From contig BEHT01000030.1 of assembly GCA_002898575.1 (NCBI GenBank), positions 1 to 43,032 of the forward strand: DNA of 43,032 bases, given 5' to 3'. Below are positions 14,709 to 39,353 of this stretch, one piece after another; positions within the stretch are counted from its first letter, which is position 1; the number at the start of each line of letters is the position of its first letter. The notes under the pieces were generated by a model. It made no database searches and was not told the DNA's origin. It saw only the letters and a list, made by a program, of their open reading frames with translations. The position numbers and the translations under genes were made by a program. This DNA comes from a bacterium HR17. Lineage in GTDB: Bacteria; Armatimonadota; Fervidibacteria; Fervidibacterales; Fervidibacteraceae.

Positions 14709-14800
14709 CGTCGGCGTTGTTTCACGCTCCGTTACCTTGATGGTGCGCCATTTCTTCAACTGCCCGCCTACAATTTATCGCACGGAGGTGACAGTGACGG

Positions 14801-16090
14801 ATGACGACAGCGACGGAGTTCAAGGTAGAAGTCGCAGAACACACCCTCCCGAACGGGCTTAAGGTGCTGGTGGTGCCTGCCCACCACGCCCCCGTCGTGA
14901 GCGTTTGGGCGTTCTACCGCGTCGGTTCCCGCCACGAGCAGTTGGGGTTGACCGGTGTCAGCCACTGGGTGGAACATATGCTGTTTAAGGGCACCCCGAA
15001 GTTCCCCAAGGGACAGATCGCCCGGCTCATCCAAAAGCACGGCGGCACGCTCAACGGGCATACAACCTACGACCACACGGCTTACTTTGAAACTTTGCCC
15101 AAAGAAAACTGGCTCATCGGGCTGGACATTGAAGCCGACCGGATGACCAACGCCCTTTTTGACCCGCAGGAGACCGAACTGGAACGGGGCGTCATCCTCA
15201 GCGAACTGGAGATGTATGAGAACCACCCGGAGCACCGTTTGTTCACCGAGTTGGCAGCGACTGCCTTTCAGGTGCACCCCTACCGCAACCCGATTATCGG
15301 GTGGCGTTGCGATTTGGAGCGAATGACCCGTGACGACCTTTACCAACACTATCGGCGCTTTTACGCGCCCAATAACGCCTTCCTCGTCCTCAGCGGGGAC
15401 ATCACCGTGGAAGAAGCCCTGCCGGAGGTGGAGCGGCGCTTCGGCGATTTGAGCCCCCGCGAAGTGCCACCTGCCATCTCGGTGAAGGAACCGCCTCAAC
15501 GCGGCGAACGACGGGTGCGGATCAAAGGGCACGGTGAACTCCCGCTGTTGGCGATGGTCTTCCATGCCCCGACTTATTCGGTGAACGGAGCCCATAATGA
15601 GGCGGACGCCCTCGCCCCCTACGCCCTGCACTTGCTTGCCGATGTGCTGGGACAGGGGCGCACCGCCCGCCTCTACCGTCGGCTGGTGGAAACGCAAAAA
15701 GCCGTCAGCGTGTGGGCGGGTAACCATGTGCACAAAGAGGCAGCACTTTTCGGTATCTTTGTGACCTTGACGAACCAAGCGAACCTGCCGGAAGTGGAAG
15801 AAACGGTCTGGTCGGAGTTGCAACGGCTGACCCAAGAGCCACCGACACCCGAAGAGATAGACCGCGTCCTCCATTGTGAGGAAGCCGATTTCCTGCGTTC
15901 GTTGGACGGGGTGACCGAGCGAGCCTATCATGTCGGCGCCTACGAAGTCCTCGGCGATTGGCGGTTGCTGAACGCTTACCTCGCCCGGCTGTATACTGTC
16001 ACGCCCGACCTGCTTTTGGCAGCCGCTCGGCGAGTGTTCACCGAAACGAACCGCACCGTCGGTTGGTTTGAACCTATCAAAGATGCGTGA
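14801..16090 (+). CDS. M16 family zinc metallopeptidase (processing-peptidase-like)
   Basis: 429 residues, the length of single-unit M16B bacterial peptidases. The inverted zinc motif HWVEH is at residues 55-59 (His55, Glu58, His59), with the distal ligand Glu135 in VILSEL 77 residues after Glu58, the spacing expected for the family. The N-terminal strand TLPNGLKVLV and the VGSRHE loop are typical. The second half carries the inactive-half fold with the L-Y-RRLVE segment that helps close the chamber. There is no signal peptide, so it is cytosolic as read. ATG 14801 is preceded by GGAGGTGA about 10 nt upstream. TACAAT at 14769-14774 may be a -10 element. The substrate is unknown. Confidence 0.93.
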   Translation: MTTATEFKVEVAEHTLPNGLKVLVVPAHHAPVVSVWAFYRVGSRHEQLGLTGVSHWVEHMLFKGTPKFPKGQIARLIQKHGGTLNGHTTYDHTAYFETLPKENWLIGLDIEADRMTNALFDPQETELERGVILSELEMYENHPEHRLFTELAATAFQVHPYRNPIIGWRCDLERMTRDDLYQHYRRFYAPNNAFLVLSGDITVEEALPEVERRFGDLSPREVPPAISVKEPPQRGERRVRIKGHGELPLLAMVFHAPTYSVNGAHNEADALAPYALHLLADVLGQGRTARLYRRLVETQKAVSVWAGNHVHKEAALFGIFVTLTNQANLPEVEETVWSELQRLTQEPPTPEEIDRVLHCEEADFLRSLDGVTERAYHVGAYEVLGDWRLLNAYLARLYTVTPDLLLAAARRVFTETNRTVGWFEPIKDA

Positions 16091-16099
16091 CCGATTCAG

Positions 16100-16156
16100 G
16101 CGCCCTTGCCGTCCGCCCAACGCCTCCAAACAGCAAGGGCGCTGCGCTGTTTTTTT
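16100..16156 (+). terminator. Intrinsic terminator after the M16 peptidase gene
   Basis: GCGCCCTTG (16100-16108) and CAAGGGCGC (16134-16142) form a perfect 9-bp stem with a 25-nt loop, followed by TGCGCTG and seven T residues. It starts 10 bp after the stop codon. Confidence 0.65.
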
Positions 16157-16279
16157 CAAACGCATGGCTCTCACTGTCGGACACGAACGGGTTCGGGCAG
16201 GGATTGCGGGGAACGGTCCGCTTTCAACGCATCTTGGCTCCTCCGAGATGTCATGGCATTGGCGGCGAAGGCAAATCAA

Positions 16280-32414: not shown

Positions 32415-32503
32415 GCCGCGGTGGCGGAACTTGGCAGACGCGCTGGCCTCAGGAGCCAGTGGGCTGAACGCCCGTGCGGGTTCAAATCCCGCCCGCGGCA
32501 CCA
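32415..32503 (+). tRNA. tRNA-Leu(CAG)
   Basis: 89 nt with a long variable arm (GGGCTGAACGCCC). The acceptor is GCCGCGG/CCGCGGC with discriminator A and an encoded CCA (32501-32503). The anticodon stem CTGGC/GCCAG holds loop CTCAGGA, giving anticodon CAG. The T-arm is GCGGG-TTCAAAT-CCCGC. Confidence 0.95.
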
Positions 32504-32594: not shown

Positions 32595-32666
32595 GCCCGG
32601 TTGGAAGCCCTTTTAGGCGCAACGGTGCGACCCTGTGCCGGTGAAGGCGAAGGAGGCAACGGCGCT

Positions 32667-35600
32667 ATGCAAAGTATTTTCACTTTTGCCCGCCGTTGGT
32701 GGTTGTGGTGGGCGCTCATCGCCATTTCTTCATGTGCCGCGGCTCAACCGCGCACGGCTTACCGTTCCCTGTATGAAGGCATCAGCGAGTCCAATTTGCG
32801 CCAAACGGTCTCCACACTTGCTTCCTTTGGCAGCCGTGTCGTGGGCTTCCCCGGTGAGCGATTGGCAGCCGAGTATGTCCGCCAGCAGTTTTTGGCGTTG
32901 GGTTTGGACGCTGTCCGCGAACAACCTTTTGAAACGGTCGTCCCTGTAGACGAGGGGGCGACCTTAGACATTCCCGCTTTGGGCAAGCGCTACCGCCTTT
33001 ACGCCCTCTGGCCGAACTTGATACGCACCAGTCAAACACCACCTGAAGGGTTGCGCGGGCATTTAATTTACGCCGGCACGGGACGGTTAGAGGCTTTCAA
33101 CGGCAAAAAAGTACAGGGCAGTATCGCCCTCGTGGAGTTTGAATCCAGCACCGATTGGTTGAACGCGATTTTTCTCGGCGGCAAAGCCGTCATCTTTATA
33201 GAACCGCAAGACCCCACGCTGCCGCGCGGCGAAGCCGAACTGAAATTCCTCACGACCCCCATTGATATCCCCCGCTACTGGCTGCCCCGCAGTGACGCCG
33301 CCGAATTACTTTCGTTGCTCAAAACGCATGGGGACTTGGAAGTCGTGGTGCGTTGTCGTATGCCGTGGCGCCGTGTGACAGCGCGCAACATCGCCGGAGT
33401 TCTGTGGGGCGTTGACCCCAAACGACGCAACGAGGTCGTCGTCCTGCAGGCTTACTATGACAGCATGAGCGTCGTGCCCGCGCTGTCCCCCGGCGCAGAG
33501 CAAGCCAGCGGGCTTGCCGTTCTCTTGGAGTTAGCCCGTTTGTTGAAACGCTATCCGCCAGACCGCACCGTCGTTTTCTTGGCGACCAGCGCGCACTGTT
33601 TGGCGCTGCGGGGTGAAGCCCAGTTTGTCTACGACTGGTTGCAAGCGGAGCAGAAGACGACATGGGACGACCTTAAAAAAATGGGCGAGGCATCGGTGGC
33701 GTCCTTCCTCTTCCGCCACTTGACGACGCAAGACGCTTTTGCCAAAGGCGAGAAGCCCGTCCTCCTGACCTTCCTGAGCCTTGACCTGTCCACTCGCACA
33801 CCGACTGTCGGCGTGTTTTACAAGGGCTACTTTTGGGACTACAACGAGGACCGCCAATGGCAGTTCTCGGACATCGGCAAGTTATGCCGTGAATCTGCAG
33901 AACGCGTCGGGTTGCTTTACGGCTTTGAGCCCGAGACCCGTTTCGTGGACGCTATTAACCCGATCAAAGGCAAAAGTTGGCGCACTTACTGCTTAGGGCG
34001 GTTGGCGTTGGGCAGCGAAATGGCGACGATCGCCGGCAAAACGGGCATCGCCCTCGCGACGGTCAACGACGGTCGCCCCTGCGTGGACACACCCTTTGAT
34101 ACGCCCGACCGCGTGAACTTCGCGAACTTAACCGCTCAAGCCCAAGTCATCGCCTGTGTCGTTTACGATTTGCTGCGGGCGCCGACGGAAACGCTGAAGA
34201 CCGACTTGGAACAAAATTTCTGCGTGCTGCGGGGCGAGGTGCTGGAGTTTGACCCCAAGCGCAGTGTCCTTTCGGTGCCTGACCAACCCGTTTTCAACGC
34301 GTTGGTGACCCTGCGCCACACGGCGTTGCCCGCCAAGACCAACATGGGCGTGCGCACGGTGTTGATGAGCCTCGCCAAATCGCAAAAAACGCCGCAAGGG
34401 TTGACGACCGCCGTTTACGAACTCGTCGGCATCCCCATGAGCCGGTTTCGGGGCGGCAATGTGCGCTTGGAAGGCTACACGGTAGACCCTCGCACCGGTC
34501 AAATCACCCGCGCCCCTGATTTGGGTTACATGGGCGCTCAAGCGACCCCTCTGGAATTTGCGATGGACCTCAACGAAAAGGAGCGCCGCTTGGCGCTCTT
34601 CCAGTGCCGTTCCATGATGTTGTTTGACATGGTTGACCAGCGCCGATTTAGCCTACTGGGGCAAATGTATGTTTACGACACCACGACGGGGTCTGAACCC
34701 TTTTTCTACGGTTACTCGCTGCCCATTCCGCAACCGATGACCAGTTACTATGAACCGTGCGCCGTCGTTTACGCGCCCCCTGGCACGCGTGTCAAGGTGA
34801 CGATGGGGGCATCCGTGCTGGGGTTGCAATTGGTCCTCATCAACGCGCCTGACCACCTCTTCCAACAACCCGACCAAATTTTGCGCGCCCGCAACGAAGA
34901 GGAACTGGGCGAGGGTTTCCTCGTGGACGACACCCCCGCGGTTTATTTCACCCCGCTCAAGGTCGCCAAGGACATGTGGGTGCTGGACGAATACCGTATC
35001 CAAAAACTGCGCCGCTACGGCGTGGAGAACCCCCGCATGAGCCAGATGCACAAGAACGCCCGAGAGTTTCTGTTAGCGGCTGAACAGTCCCTTAAAGAGA
35101 TGCGCTATGACCGGTTTATGACCAACGCCCGCGCCGCGTGGAGTTATGAGGCGAAAGCCTACCCCGATGCCCAGTCAACGGCGATGGATGTCGTCAAAGG
35201 TATTCTCTTCTACTTGGCGCTGCTCATCCCGTTCGCTTACTTCACCGAGCGGTTGTTTTTCTACATGTCCGACCTGAAGTGGCAAATCGTCATGACCGTT
35301 CTTATCTTCGCCGCCATCACTGCGGTAATGCGTTATGTGCACCCGGCGTTTGCGATCGTGACCGTCAACCCGTTAATTGTCGTCTTAGCGTTCATCATCC
35401 TCACACTGGCGGTCATCGTCTCCGTCATCATCATTCAAAAGTTTGAGGCGCAGATGCGCCAAATCCAGTCGGAAACTTCCGGCATGCACACAGCCGATGT
35501 GGGGCGGTTATCAGCGACCGCAGCGGCGTTCAACCTGGGCGTTTCCAACATGCGCCGCCGCAAAGTGCGCACCGTGCTGACAGCGGTCACCCTCATCCTG

Positions 35601-37310
35601 TTGACTTTCACCGTTTTGTCTTTCACCTCTGTCGTCCCCTATGTGCGGGTCAACAAAGTCGCTGTCCCGCGCGGCAAGCCCGTCTACGCCGGCGTGCTCA
35701 TTCGCGACCGTGCGTGGAACCCGCTGGGTGAGCCGACGACACGCATTTTGCGCGATGAATATGGCGACCGCTTCCCGATCGCCCCGCGAGCGTGGTATTT
35801 CTCGGAGATGGTCGGCAATCAGTCATTCGTGGATGTCGTCTACCAAGGCAAGGTCTACTCTGCCACCGCCATCGTCGGAATGCATCCCGATGAGTTGAAA
35901 ATTACCCCGATTCGTAAAGCCATCACCGGGCGATGGTTCAAAGACGAATATGAGCGTGCCGCGCTCATCCCGACGCGCATGGCGCAACAGTTCGGCATCA
36001 ACGAACGGGACATTTTACTGGGGCTGCGCACGGGCGATTTGCCCCGCATCCAAGTGCTGGGGATGTCCCTTCCCGTGATCGGCATCGTGAAATCAGAAGT
36101 CATGAAAAACATCGTGGATTTGGACGGGGAACCGTTGACCCCTGTGGATTACTTGCTTATGCAAGAACGCCAACGACAACAACAGCAAGCGGGGCAACAA
36201 ACGGCGATGGAGTTGGAAGAATACATCCACCTCAACCCCGACGCCGTCCTCTACCTGCCCTTCCATTTGGTCATGGCAGCCGGCGGCAACTTGCGTTCGG
36301 TTGCCATCAACATGGGCGATGAGGAAACCGTCTCAAAGGAGCTACAAACGCTCATTGACCGCACGGAACTAAACCTGTTCGCTGTGGAGCGCGACCGCAG
36401 CGGTCGCCCTTATGTCGTGCTGTGCAGTTCCATCGGGACAACGGGCGTCTCCGGCGTAGAGACGGTGTTCATTCCGATCGTCATCGCTGCCTTGATCGTT
36501 CTGAACACGATGTTAAGCGCCGTCTACGAACGCATCCGCGAAATCGGGATTTACACGGCGCTCGGTTTAGCCCCTGTTCACATCGGCGCCCTTTTCTTAG
36601 CGGAATCCGCTGTCTACGCTGTGTTGGGGGCGATCGTCGGCTACATGTTGGGGCAGTTGGTCGCAATGTTGCAAGTGCATTATCAACTCATTGAAGGTTT
36701 GAACCTCAACTACTCCTCTGTCGCCGCCGTGTTTACTGTCTTGGTCGTGATGGCGACGGTGCTGGGGTCAACCCTTTACCCGGCGTGGAAAGCCTCGCAA
36801 GTGTCGGTGCCAGGCATTGAGCGGCGGTGGCGCTTACCCCAACCCGAAGGCGACTACCTGCACATCCTGCTTCCGTTCACCGTTTCGTCCTCGCAAGCGG
36901 TCGGCATTATGATGTTCCTTCGGGAATACTTGGAAGCCCACACAGACTACAGTCTCGGTCATTTCTCCACCGACCGGGTGCAAATGAGCCGCTTCACGAC
37001 CGAGCACGGGGAAGGGTATCGGTTGGAGTGTATGGTGTGGTTAGCCCCTTACGATTTGGGCGTCAGCGAATATTTCATCATTGAAACCCGTCCGACAGAA
37101 GACATTTTCGTCAACACCATCCACATCACCATTCGGCGCGAAAGTGGGGACGAGTCGTCGTGGCTGCGGGTCACCCGCAACTTCCTTAACCTCATCCGCA
37201 AGCAGTTCTTGCTGTGGCGCACGCTGCGCCCTGAGACAAAGGAGCATTACATCCGCACCGGTTGGGCGGCGGTGCACGGTGTTGGCGAAGAACGCATCGC
37301 CAGCGCATAA
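32667..37310 (+). CDS. Fusion of degenerate M28 peptidase domain with FtsX/MacB-type permease (1547 aa)
   Basis: ATG 32667 with AAGGAGG 10 nt upstream. A signal or anchor helix is at about 12-30. Residues about 40-490 follow the M28 aminopeptidase fold with an inserted PA-like domain, but the metal and catalytic positions are changed: AHYD is A262-Y-Y-D, PGADDNASG is PGAEQASG (275-282), AEE is A309-H-C311, and the late YHT is V473-D-T. About 490-840 is a beta-rich extracytoplasmic region. Three membrane helices follow (about 845-866, 872-893, 899-922), then RRRK (963-966) and an FtsX core: helix 967-995, an extracytoplasmic domain to about 1265, and three helices (about 1267-1290, 1305-1330, 1345-1370), including the IREIGIYTALGL coupling segment. 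The last ~170 residues are a soluble domain I do not recognise. No ATPase gene is adjacent. The peptidase part is probably a binding domain. Confidence 0.85.
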   Translation: MQSIFTFARRWWLWWALIAISSCAAAQPRTAYRSLYEGISESNLRQTVSTLASFGSRVVGFPGERLAAEYVRQQFLALGLDAVREQPFETVVPVDEGATLDIPALGKRYRLYALWPNLIRTSQTPPEGLRGHLIYAGTGRLEAFNGKKVQGSIALVEFESSTDWLNAIFLGGKAVIFIEPQDPTLPRGEAELKFLTTPIDIPRYWLPRSDAAELLSLLKTHGDLEVVVRCRMPWRRVTARNIAGVLWGVDPKRRNEVVVLQAYYDSMSVVPALSPGAEQASGLAVLLELARLLKRYPPDRTVVFLATSAHCLALRGEAQFVYDWLQAEQKTTWDDLKKMGEASVASFLFRHLTTQDAFAKGEKPVLLTFLSLDLSTRTPTVGVFYKGYFWDYNEDRQWQFSDIGKLCRESAERVGLLYGFEPETRFVDAINPIKGKSWRTYCLGRLALGSEMATIAGKTGIALATVNDGRPCVDTPFDTPDRVNFANLTAQAQVIACVVYDLLRAPTETLKTDLEQNFCVLRGEVLEFDPKRSVLSVPDQPVFNALVTLRHTALPAKTNMGVRTVLMSLAKSQKTPQGLTTAVYELVGIPMSRFRGGNVRLEGYTVDPRTGQITRAPDLGYMGAQATPLEFAMDLNEKERRLALFQCRSMMLFDMVDQRRFSLLGQMYVYDTTTGSEPFFYGYSLPIPQPMTSYYEPCAVVYAPPGTRVKVTMGASVLGLQLVLINAPDHLFQQPDQILRARNEEELGEGFLVDDTPAVYFTPLKVAKDMWVLDEYRIQKLRRYGVENPRMSQMHKNAREFLLAAEQSLKEMRYDRFMTNARAAWSYEAKAYPDAQSTAMDVVKGILFYLALLIPFAYFTERLFFYMSDLKWQIVMTVLIFAAITAVMRYVHPAFAIVTVNPLIVVLAFIILTLAVIVSVIIIQKFEAQMRQIQSETSGMHTADVGRLSATAAAFNLGVSNMRRRKVRTVLTAVTLILLTFTVLSFTSVVPYVRVNKVAVPRGKPVYAGVLIRDRAWNPLGEPTTRILRDEYGDRFPIAPRAWYFSEMVGNQSFVDVVYQGKVYSATAIVGMHPDELKITPIRKAITGRWFKDEYERAALIPTRMAQQFGINERDILLGLRTGDLPRIQVLGMSLPVIGIVKSEVMKNIVDLDGEPLTPVDYLLMQERQRQQQQAGQQTAMELEEYIHLNPDAVLYLPFHLVMAAGGNLRSVAINMGDEETVSKELQTLIDRTELNLFAVERDRSGRPYVVLCSSIGTTGVSGVETVFIPIVIAALIVLNTMLSAVYERIREIGIYTALGLAPVHIGALFLAESAVYAVLGAIVGYMLGQLVAMLQVHYQLIEGLNLNYSSVAAVFTVLVVMATVLGSTLYPAWKASQVSVPGIERRWRLPQPEGDYLHILLPFTVSSSQAVGIMMFLREYLEAHTDYSLGHFSTDRVQMSRFTTEHGEGYRLECMVWLAPYDLGVSEYFIIETRPTEDIFVNTIHITIRRESGDESSWLRVTRNFLNLIRKQFLLWRTLRPETKEHYIRTGWAAVHGVGEERIASA

Positions 37311-37346: not shown

Positions 37347-39353
37347 GTGGGGTTGATGAAGATCCAAGCGGAGTTGGAAGAATATCGGCGGTTGATGGAG
37401 CCTCCCCCACCCGAGGAGTTTGAGGAAGGGTTCAGCGTCCGCACCGTCTTGGGGGCTCTTTTTGTCGCCTTCGTTATGCTCCCCGGCGCCGCTTACCTCA
37501 GCCTCGTTACGGGCACCGGCTTAGGCGCGGCACCCCAATGGGTGACGGTCATCCTCTTCATGGAAATTGCCCGCCGTTCGTTCATCACCCTCAAACGCCA
37601 AGAGATTTACCTGCTCTATATCGTGGCAGGCGCCATCTTGGGTACGAACCCCTACTCAGGCTACATCTGGAATGTGTTCCTGCGCACCTCCCAAGTGACG
37701 CAAGGGTTAGGCGTCGCCCAAGACATCCCGACTTGGCTGGTTCCACAAGCCAACTCTCCCGCCATCTTACAGCGCACCTTTTTCCATCCCGACTGGTTCA
37801 TTCCCGTCGCTGTCAGCTTAGCGCTCCTTCTGCTCACCCGCGCCAGCGGTTTCGCCGCTGGCTATATCCTGTTCCGAATCACTTCAGACTACGAGCGACT
37901 GCCGTTTCCGTTAGCGCCGGTCGGTGCCCAAGGGGCAACGGTGCTGGCGGAAATCTCCCGCAAGGAAGAAACCTGGCGGTGGCGCTATTTCAGCATCGGG
38001 GCAATGATCGGGTTGGCGTTCGGCTTGTTTTACGCCGGTATCCCGACGATCACTGGGGCGATCATGAACCGTCCCTTGCAACTCATTCCCATCCCTTTCA
38101 TTGACCTGACCCAAAACACCGAGAGCGTGTTGCCTGCCACCCCGGTCGTCATCAACACCGACTTGGGTGGGTTTTTGGCGGGCTTTGTCCTGCCCTTCTG
38201 GGCGGTCATCGGTGGGTTCATCGGTTCGTTGATCCCCGCAGTTCTCAACCCGCTATTGTATCGGGGTCGTTGGGGGCGTATCTATTTGCGCCATTGGCGC
38301 CCCGGCTTGGACGCGATTCAAACGGAAATGCTCAATCAATACGATTTTTGGCTGAGCGCACGCATCGGTGCAGGGCTAGGCATCGCCGGCTTGGGCATCG
38401 CTTCAGCCCTCACAATGGCGGTTCGCGAACGACACGCCTACCGTGTCGCCGGCGGAACGCGTGAAGACCGCATCCCGCTGACGGCTATGTTGCCCCATCG
38501 GGGAGATTTTCCCGTGCCTTTGATGTTCGGCGTCTATTTGGTAGCGACAGCGCTTATCGTCATTTTGTGCAAACTGCTGCTGCCCCACCTCTCTATCCTG
38601 TTCCCCCTCTTCTTCGCCTTCATTTACACCCCGATCATCTCGTATGTGGACGCTCGTATGCGCGGTTTGACAGGACAGTGGACGGGCATCCCCTTCGTCC
38701 GCGAAGGGTTCAACATCATCTACAGCAAAATGACGGGCTATCGGGGATTGGACATTTGGTTCGCTCCGTTGCCTATCTACGACTACGGGGAGGGCGCCCA
38801 GAACTTCCGCGTCGTAGAACTGACCGGCACCAAGTTCACCGGGCTGCTGAAGACGGAGGTCGTCATCGTCGTCATCGGTTTGTTGGCAAACTTGGCAGTC
38901 TGGCAGTATTTGTGGCGGTTGGCACCGATTCCGTCCTATGTTTACCCCTTCGCTCAAAAGATGTGGCCGCTTTACGCCTTCGGACAAGCCTTGCTGTGGA
39001 CGACGACGACCGAGCGCGGACGACAGTTAATGCCCCTCAAACCCGACATCATCGTCACTTTCTTGGCAGGCACCCTCCTCGCCTACCCTCTGTTCGCCTT
39101 TACCAATTTGCCGACCCTCTTTTTCTACGGTCTCGTTCAGGGCGTCAGCGGAATGCCGTTTAGCGGTTTGCTAACGCTGGCAGGTGCATTGGTTTCCCGA
39201 TTTTACTTTGAGAAAAACTATCCTGACGCTACGACTTGGCGCCGCTACGCCACCGTGTTACTCGCCGGTTACTCCTGCGGGATGGGCTTGGTCGGGATGT
39301 TCTGCGCCGCCTTAGCGATGGTCAGTAAGGCAGTAACCCAATTGCCTTACTGA
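37347..39353 (+). CDS. OPT-like multi-pass membrane transporter
   Basis: 668 residues from GTG 37347, 36 bp after the permease fusion, so likely in one operon with it. An acidic cytosolic N-terminus (ELEEYRRLMEPPPPEEFEE) precedes about 14-16 hydrophobic helices. The features SVRTVLGALFVAFVMLPGAAY near the first helix and YERLPFPLAPVGAQG in the middle recall oligopeptide transporter (OPT/YSL) proteins, where a LPFP segment and similar early Gly-rich helix occur. Overall similarity is loose, so a related uncharacterised integral membrane family is the alternative. OPT members move peptides or metal chelates with protons. The substrate here is unknown. Confidence 0.7.
   Translation: MGLMKIQAELEEYRRLMEPPPPEEFEEGFSVRTVLGALFVAFVMLPGAAYLSLVTGTGLGAAPQWVTVILFMEIARRSFITLKRQEIYLLYIVAGAILGTNPYSGYIWNVFLRTSQVTQGLGVAQDIPTWLVPQANSPAILQRTFFHPDWFIPVAVSLALLLLTRASGFAAGYILFRITSDYERLPFPLAPVGAQGATVLAEISRKEETWRWRYFSIGAMIGLAFGLFYAGIPTITGAIMNRPLQLIPIPFIDLTQNTESVLPATPVVINTDLGGFLAGFVLPFWAVIGGFIGSLIPAVLNPLLYRGRWGRIYLRHWRPGLDAIQTEMLNQYDFWLSARIGAGLGIAGLGIASALTMAVRERHAYRVAGGTREDRIPLTAMLPHRGDFPVPLMFGVYLVATALIVILCKLLLPHLSILFPLFFAFIYTPIISYVDARMRGLTGQWTGIPFVREGFNIIYSKMTGYRGLDIWFAPLPIYDYGEGAQNFRVVELTGTKFTGLLKTEVVIVVIGLLANLAVWQYLWRLAPIPSYVYPFAQKMWPLYAFGQALLWTTTTERGRQLMPLKPDIIVTFLAGTLLAYPLFAFTNLPTLFFYGLVQGVSGMPFSGLLTLAGALVSRFYFEKNYPDATTWRRYATVLLAGYSCGMGLVGMFCAALAMVSKAVTQLPY

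Follow-up and report, generated by a model that had tools for sequence, protein, structure and literature searches.

An open reading frame in the genome of bacterium HR17, a member of the Armatimonadota, joins the fold of an M28 aminopeptidase to a permease core of the FtsX type, which raises the question what such a fold does on a membrane protein once the residues that normally bind zinc have been exchanged. The contig analysed here (BEHT01000030.1, positions 1 to 43,032; hereafter the window) had been described in a first-pass annotation as encoding a degenerate M28 peptidase, reused outside the membrane as a binding or sensing domain.

Gene and domain layout of the M28-FtsX protein

The gene for the M28-FtsX fusion (hereafter the giant) occupies positions 32667-37310 of the + strand, and its frame is open over 1547 codons, bearing out the 1547-residue protein that had been predicted. 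Translation from ATG 32667 is preferred over the in-frame upstream GTG 32556, because a Shine-Dalgarno motif (AGGAGG, + strand), read directly from the sequence, is located at 32651-32656. The protein is conserved across most of the phylum and therefore does not represent a chance open reading frame; this conservation and the ribosome-binding site also rule out a mis-called frame at 32667-37310. In one scan of genome contigs the closest relative was that of Armatimonadetes bacterium SKW126 (82% identical). A tRNA-Leu (CAG) lies directly upstream of the gene (32415-32503), and elsewhere in the window a 503-residue open reading frame beside uvrB (14768-16279, - strand) is without Pfam match at 1e-5.

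The first-pass annotation had proposed profile searches with both families and comparison of a predicted structure with M28 enzymes, and these analyses agree with the fusion it had suggested. Peptidase_M28 (PF04389; 1.1e-8, residues 250-321) and FtsX (PF02687; 2.4e-13, residues 1268-1379) were both found above their curated Pfam cut-offs. An AlphaFold2 model of residues 27-512, built on 37 orthologues (pLDDT 89.6, pTM 0.91), adopts the M28 fold, and Foldseek matched it to 2ek8 (2.9e-25) and BSAP (4.5e-23), as well as to PaAP, the transferrin receptor and glutamate carboxypeptidase. The nearest PDB entry, 2ek8, was also found by profile search (1.6e-25), and the structural or profile matches of this half include nicalin as well as the transferrin receptor.

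From its N-terminus, the giant consists of a signal peptide (residues 1-26; 32667-32744) followed by the extracytoplasmic M28 fold with a PA-type insertion (residues 27-505; 32745-34181), these and all following segments being on the + strand. The N-termini of the giant and its orthologues look like cleavable signal peptides, the hydrophobic segments of the orthologues running up to A-x-A type sites, so that the M28 half should reside outside the cytoplasmic membrane, as had been proposed. According to the secondary structure of the AlphaFold2 models, the M28 half is followed by a beta-rich extracytoplasmic domain that belongs to no Pfam family (residues 512-760; 34200-34946), a helical hairpin with three added transmembrane helices (residues 762-938; 34950-35480), and the amphipathic helix and transmembrane helix 1 of the FtsX core (residues 947-990; 35505-35636). 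Profile search, AlphaFold2 and Foldseek place a MacB/Lol-type extracytoplasmic domain (residues 991-1260; 35637-36446) between FtsX helices 1 and 2, and helices 2-4 (residues 1265-1380; 36459-36806) coincide with the PF02687 match. The protein ends in a cytosolic alpha/beta domain (residues 1397-1518; 36855-37220) with the element order beta-alpha-4 beta-alpha, which is possibly Bet v 1/START-like; weak Foldseek matches of the permease half to PR-10 and COXG structures probably belong to this domain. The permease half as a whole matches MacB, 5xu1 and LolCDE in both Foldseek and profile searches (Foldseek MacB 1.9e-10), and the placement of its domains relative to each other is uncertain because of the pTM of 0.64 (pLDDT 79.1).

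Replacement of the M28 ligands by an invariant set

The five ligand positions were located by HMMER alignments to 2ek8, BSAP and the Aeromonas aminopeptidase, and residues were counted in 63 orthologues with good coverage, including deeply divergent members and one member from outside the phylum. The canonical M28 ligand set is H-D-E-D-H, and the window protein has Y-E-C-D-D at the same positions. Site 1 (His97 of the Aeromonas enzyme) is Tyr263 (33453-33455, + strand) and varies among the orthologues (Y49/F8/H2/S2/N1/W1), such that the His is absent in 61 of the 63. Site 2 (Asp117) is Glu278 (33498-33500, + strand; E53/D10). HMMER positions the one-residue gap near this site otherwise; Glu278 was assigned to it because the Gly of an (A/C)SG-type motif follows four residues later and because a helix of the model begins at Glu278, the ligand Asp of M28 enzymes being the first residue of a helix. 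The catalytic base, Glu151, is replaced by His at the position of His310 in every orthologue, and the adjoining Cys311 (both at 33594-33599, + strand) is site 3 (Glu152), where Glu is absent in 63/63 and mostly exchanged for Phe (F39/C7/H7/G4/S3/Y3). Site 4 (Asp179) is Asp373 (33783-33785, + strand), which is kept in 63/63 and lies at the end of strand 339-347 of the AlphaFold2 model. Site 5 (His256) is Asp474 (D59/N4), encoded together with Arg470 (R in 63/63) within 34074-34088 of the + strand. Placement of Tyr263, Glu278/Gln279, His310/Cys311 and Asp474 at ligand or base positions had been part of the first-pass annotation, and the alignments to 2ek8 and BSAP concur with it; Asp373 and the neighbouring Asp265, both retained, were absent from its list.

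The canonical ligand set was encountered in 0/63 orthologues, and a search for intact ligands in the deepest members (families f13, f18, f29 and f30, and three outside-phylum genomes) found none. As a control, the canonical set is intact in two further M28 proteins encoded by the HR17 genome. The canonical dizinc chemistry has thus very probably been lost from the M28 domain of the giant, in line with what had been claimed.

To describe the site as degenerate is misleading if relaxation is meant. At four positions a new state is fixed in 63/63 orthologues, i.e., Glu/Asp at site 2, His at the base position, Asp at site 4 and Asp/Asn at site 5, and Asp265, Glu451, Asp468, Arg470 and Asp478 are invariant as well. 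Because of this fixation and of the invariance of the neighbouring polar residues, the pocket is, as judged from the alignments, recoded and under strong selection in its new form, and not relaxed by decay. The comparison of orthologues that had been proposed to see whether the changed sites are uniformly non-metal-binding has thereby a divided outcome: the canonical set is uniformly absent, but four of the site positions are invariant in their new form and hold residues potentially able to bind metal. A decaying, non-functional remnant that is kept only for folding could account for the variation at sites 1 and 3, but it is very improbable, since in a set of 38 sequences conservation reaches 95% or more at three of the five changed site positions, compared with 40 of all 486 columns (a simple binomial estimate gives about 0.005), and the polar neighbours do not vary across the 63 sequences.

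By homology to the M28 positions, Glu278, His310, Asp373 and Asp474 are predicted to form a cluster, in which the three carboxylates together with His310 could bind metal. This bears on the possibility that the M28 domain has remained enzymatically active through an altered site, in a machine that couples ATP to the hydrolysis of peptides or amides outside the membrane; His310 would then act as the base in place of Glu, and a single metal, zinc or other, would be held by Glu278, Asp373 and Asp474. Loss of the site 3 Glu from all orthologues and of the site 1 His from 61 of 63 removes ligands of both canonical zincs, and we know of no M28 ligand set with Asp in place of His at site 5, which makes this possibility rather unlikely. 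It does agree with the ability of all four invariant site positions to bind metal or act as a base, and with the alignment of PDB entry 2anp, which has His at the catalytic Glu position. Moreover, there is published precedent for His at the Glu151 position in the 'functional E151H aminopeptidase' named in the title of Bzymek et al. 2005 (cited in PMC4320195), and one-zinc M28 relatives exist (PMC7522609). A role of the M28 domain in binding or sensing, as had been envisaged from the start, is the more plausible interpretation of the recoded pocket.

Partner genes and distribution across the phylum

The multi-gene context of the giant was absent from the first-pass annotation. The next gene, 36 bases downstream (37347-39353, + strand), encodes P0002, a polytopic membrane protein of 668 residues and a putative distant relative of the OPT family. 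Its family adjoins the giant in about 32 orthologous loci and displays 53% mean column identity across 22 members. P0002 itself has no match to PF03169 or elsewhere in Pfam; few members of the family reach OPT (one of the 22 matched PF03169 at 1.5e-5), and members in two genomes exceed the PF03169 cut-off, 1e-6 being reached, which weakly suggests that the family consists of OPT relatives.

In relatives, these two genes are part of a six-gene operon that encodes the M28-FtsX protein, the OPT-like membrane protein, a soluble protein, a PqqD-like protein, a minimal FtsX protein and a LolD-like ATPase; some operons contain an additional small membrane protein after the OPT-like gene. The ATPase and the minimal FtsX are encoded beside the giant, mostly with the PqqD-like gene, in 18 loci of the phylum. 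Nine further loci have the operon whole or nearly so (L141 is without a match for the minimal FtsX and L143 without one for the soluble protein), and three of these are in genomes from other phyla. In families L045 and L051 the ATPase and the minimal FtsX precede the giant instead, and in several families, including that of the window, neither gene adjoins it; in families f13, f29 and f30 the giant stands alone. Of the operon genes, the window contains just the giant and its OPT-like neighbour. The genes for the PqqD-like protein (1644-2012), the minimal FtsX and the ATPase are found, in that order, elsewhere in the genome, on contig C23 (L075:1644-3542), which also contains a repeat-like intergenic stretch with repetitive open reading frames in several frames (L075:5270-6000).

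PqqD folds elsewhere bind leader peptides; apart from the PqqD-like gene, none of the genes in the conserved operon was noticed to be of a RiPP type. The soluble operon protein (330 residues; e.g., L044:4152-5141, - strand) has conserved Cys and His residues, and is possibly metal-binding in view of its W-x-C-x-x-C and W-H-C-E motifs. Searches for solved relatives of this protein and of P0002 found none. An optional operon protein (L058:4624-5472, - strand) has four hydrophobic helices and, by eye, a prepilin-like C-terminus.

In the ATPase encoded on C23 the Walker A motif (GPSGSGKS) and the signature motif (LSGGQ) are readable. This ATPase is closest to LolD (LolD model, 5.3e-71), and the minimal FtsX, of about 211 residues with four helices and almost no outer domain, is closest to LolC/E. 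These affinities, and the weak matches to lipid-binding folds (Bet v 1/START) that probably lie in the C-terminal domain of the giant, would suit an extractor of lipoproteins or lipids like LolCDE or YbbAP, with an M28 domain that does no more than provide a scaffold or a docking site for a partner. Such a function is doubtful, as the operon permeases and the ATPase miss every NCBIfam cut-off for Lol, MacB and FtsX, the permeases by a wide margin, and a mere scaffold does not need an invariant polar pocket. Assignment of the giant to LolC, MacB, ADOP or FtsX proper was rejected on the missed cut-offs; its best NCBIfam score was 33.2 bits against a cut-off of 622.3 (ADOP), with 27.7 against 473 for LolC.

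The distribution of the giant was determined with a profile of residues 560-985 across 291 genomes of the phylum. It was present in 189 of these, representing 114 of 156 genera, and the OPT-like family was present in 197. Both occur together in 184 genomes, the giant alone in 5, the OPT-like family alone in 13, and neither in 89, counts in which genomes are not independent because of kinship. Among the discordant genomes are some with fragmented assemblies, and in these (G005, G010) part of the giant was detected. The co-occurrence does not merely reflect linkage, since the two genes are unlinked in several genomes (G004, with the genes on C92 and C88, G186, G165 and G172). Outside the phylum, where its spread is undersampled, strong matches to the giant were obtained in three of about 106 genomes. 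In a midpoint-rooted tree these members fall inside the diversity of the phylum, which may reflect lateral transfer or an old age of the family. The giant is usually single-copy; G040, G042, G044, G250 and G275 have two to four matches each, so that some lineages possess paralogues.

A candidate type VII ABC machine and its known counterparts

In type VII ABC machines, ATP powers motions of domains outside the membrane, and no substrate passes through the core (PMC5985334). The giant has the features of this class, namely an FtsX-type transmembrane core with an extracytoplasmic domain between helices 1 and 2, and a LolD/MacB-like ATPase, presumed to pair with it, is encoded in the operon of relatives and on C23 of its own genome. 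Given the computed fold, fusion, ligand replacement, invariance, operon structure and co-occurrence, the giant is best explained as the larger permease subunit of a type VII ABC machine that has not been described before, and its pocket would bind a ligand and pass it, or a signal, to the OPT-like protein; the probability of this reading is estimated at roughly 0.6. Complex formation, mechanotransmission, ligand and direction are inferred. The LolD-like ATPase and the minimal four-helix FtsX, encoded here on another contig, would supply the other parts, the minimal FtsX as the unequal partner of the giant and the ATPase, by analogy, as the drive of this pair. The outer part of the giant, composed of the M28 fold, the beta-rich domain and a MacB-like stalk domain, would respond to ATP-driven stalk movement by moving or opening the M28-like domain. 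The recoded pocket (Glu/Asp278-His310-Asp373-Asp/Asn474, with Arg470) most likely binds a ligand, for which a peptide is the first guess because of the neighbouring OPT-like and PqqD-like proteins. This ligand might be handed over, or a signal might be sent, to the OPT-like membrane protein encoded next door. A wider proposal, namely that a phylum-wide, ATP-driven machine with a new invariant active or binding site on an M28 fold, driven by a type VII ABC core and accompanied by OPT-like and PqqD-like proteins, constitutes a new envelope system for handling or sensing peptides, is put forward tentatively, at somewhat less than even odds.

The system is wider and more ordered than the first-pass annotation had seen, and this conserved ABC system, a core trait of most Armatimonadota, appears to be undescribed. 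The open-access literature yielded no description of an M28-FtsX fusion or of such a system in Armatimonadota, in agreement with the novelty that had been claimed for the fusion. The pocket is a natural example of a catalytic site whose residues were exchanged one by one for another invariant set, and an old enzyme fold has apparently been recruited to a new task in binding or catalysis. Since the giant is large, usually single-copy and tied to few genes, its role and its pocket are directly testable in cultured members of the phylum.

The giant shares with MacB, LolCDE and FtsEX the four-helix FtsX core, the outer domain between helices 1 and 2 and the LolD/MacB-like ATPase, but differs in the strong asymmetry of its putative pair (1547 versus about 211 residues), in its three added helices, beta-rich domain and M28 domain, and in scoring below every NCBIfam equivalog cut-off. 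With the PA-domain M28 aminopeptidases (2ek8, BSAP 6hc6) it has the fold and the domain order in common, whereas its zinc ligands and base are replaced and the domain is part of a membrane permease. An M28 fold within a membrane protein or complex is also known from the non-canonical eukaryotic proteins transferrin receptor, nicalin and GPAA1, the first two of which are not known to have peptidase function; their membrane parts are unrelated and they contain no ABC core. The fusions of ABC-2 permeases with M1 aminopeptidases named in the first-pass annotation, compared here by description, likewise join a permease to an aminopeptidase fold, but the permease fold and the peptidase family are different. 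YbbAP-TesA of Escherichia coli is a type VII ABC system working with a hydrolase, and resembles the proposed machine in its extra transmembrane helices and in the location of the hydrolase outside the inner membrane (PMC12646458). In that system, the active esterase TesA forms a subunit of its own and the permease YbbP is internally duplicated, whereas the proposed machine has an M28-type domain with a recoded site on the same chain as one permease half, and additionally includes OPT-like and PqqD-like proteins.
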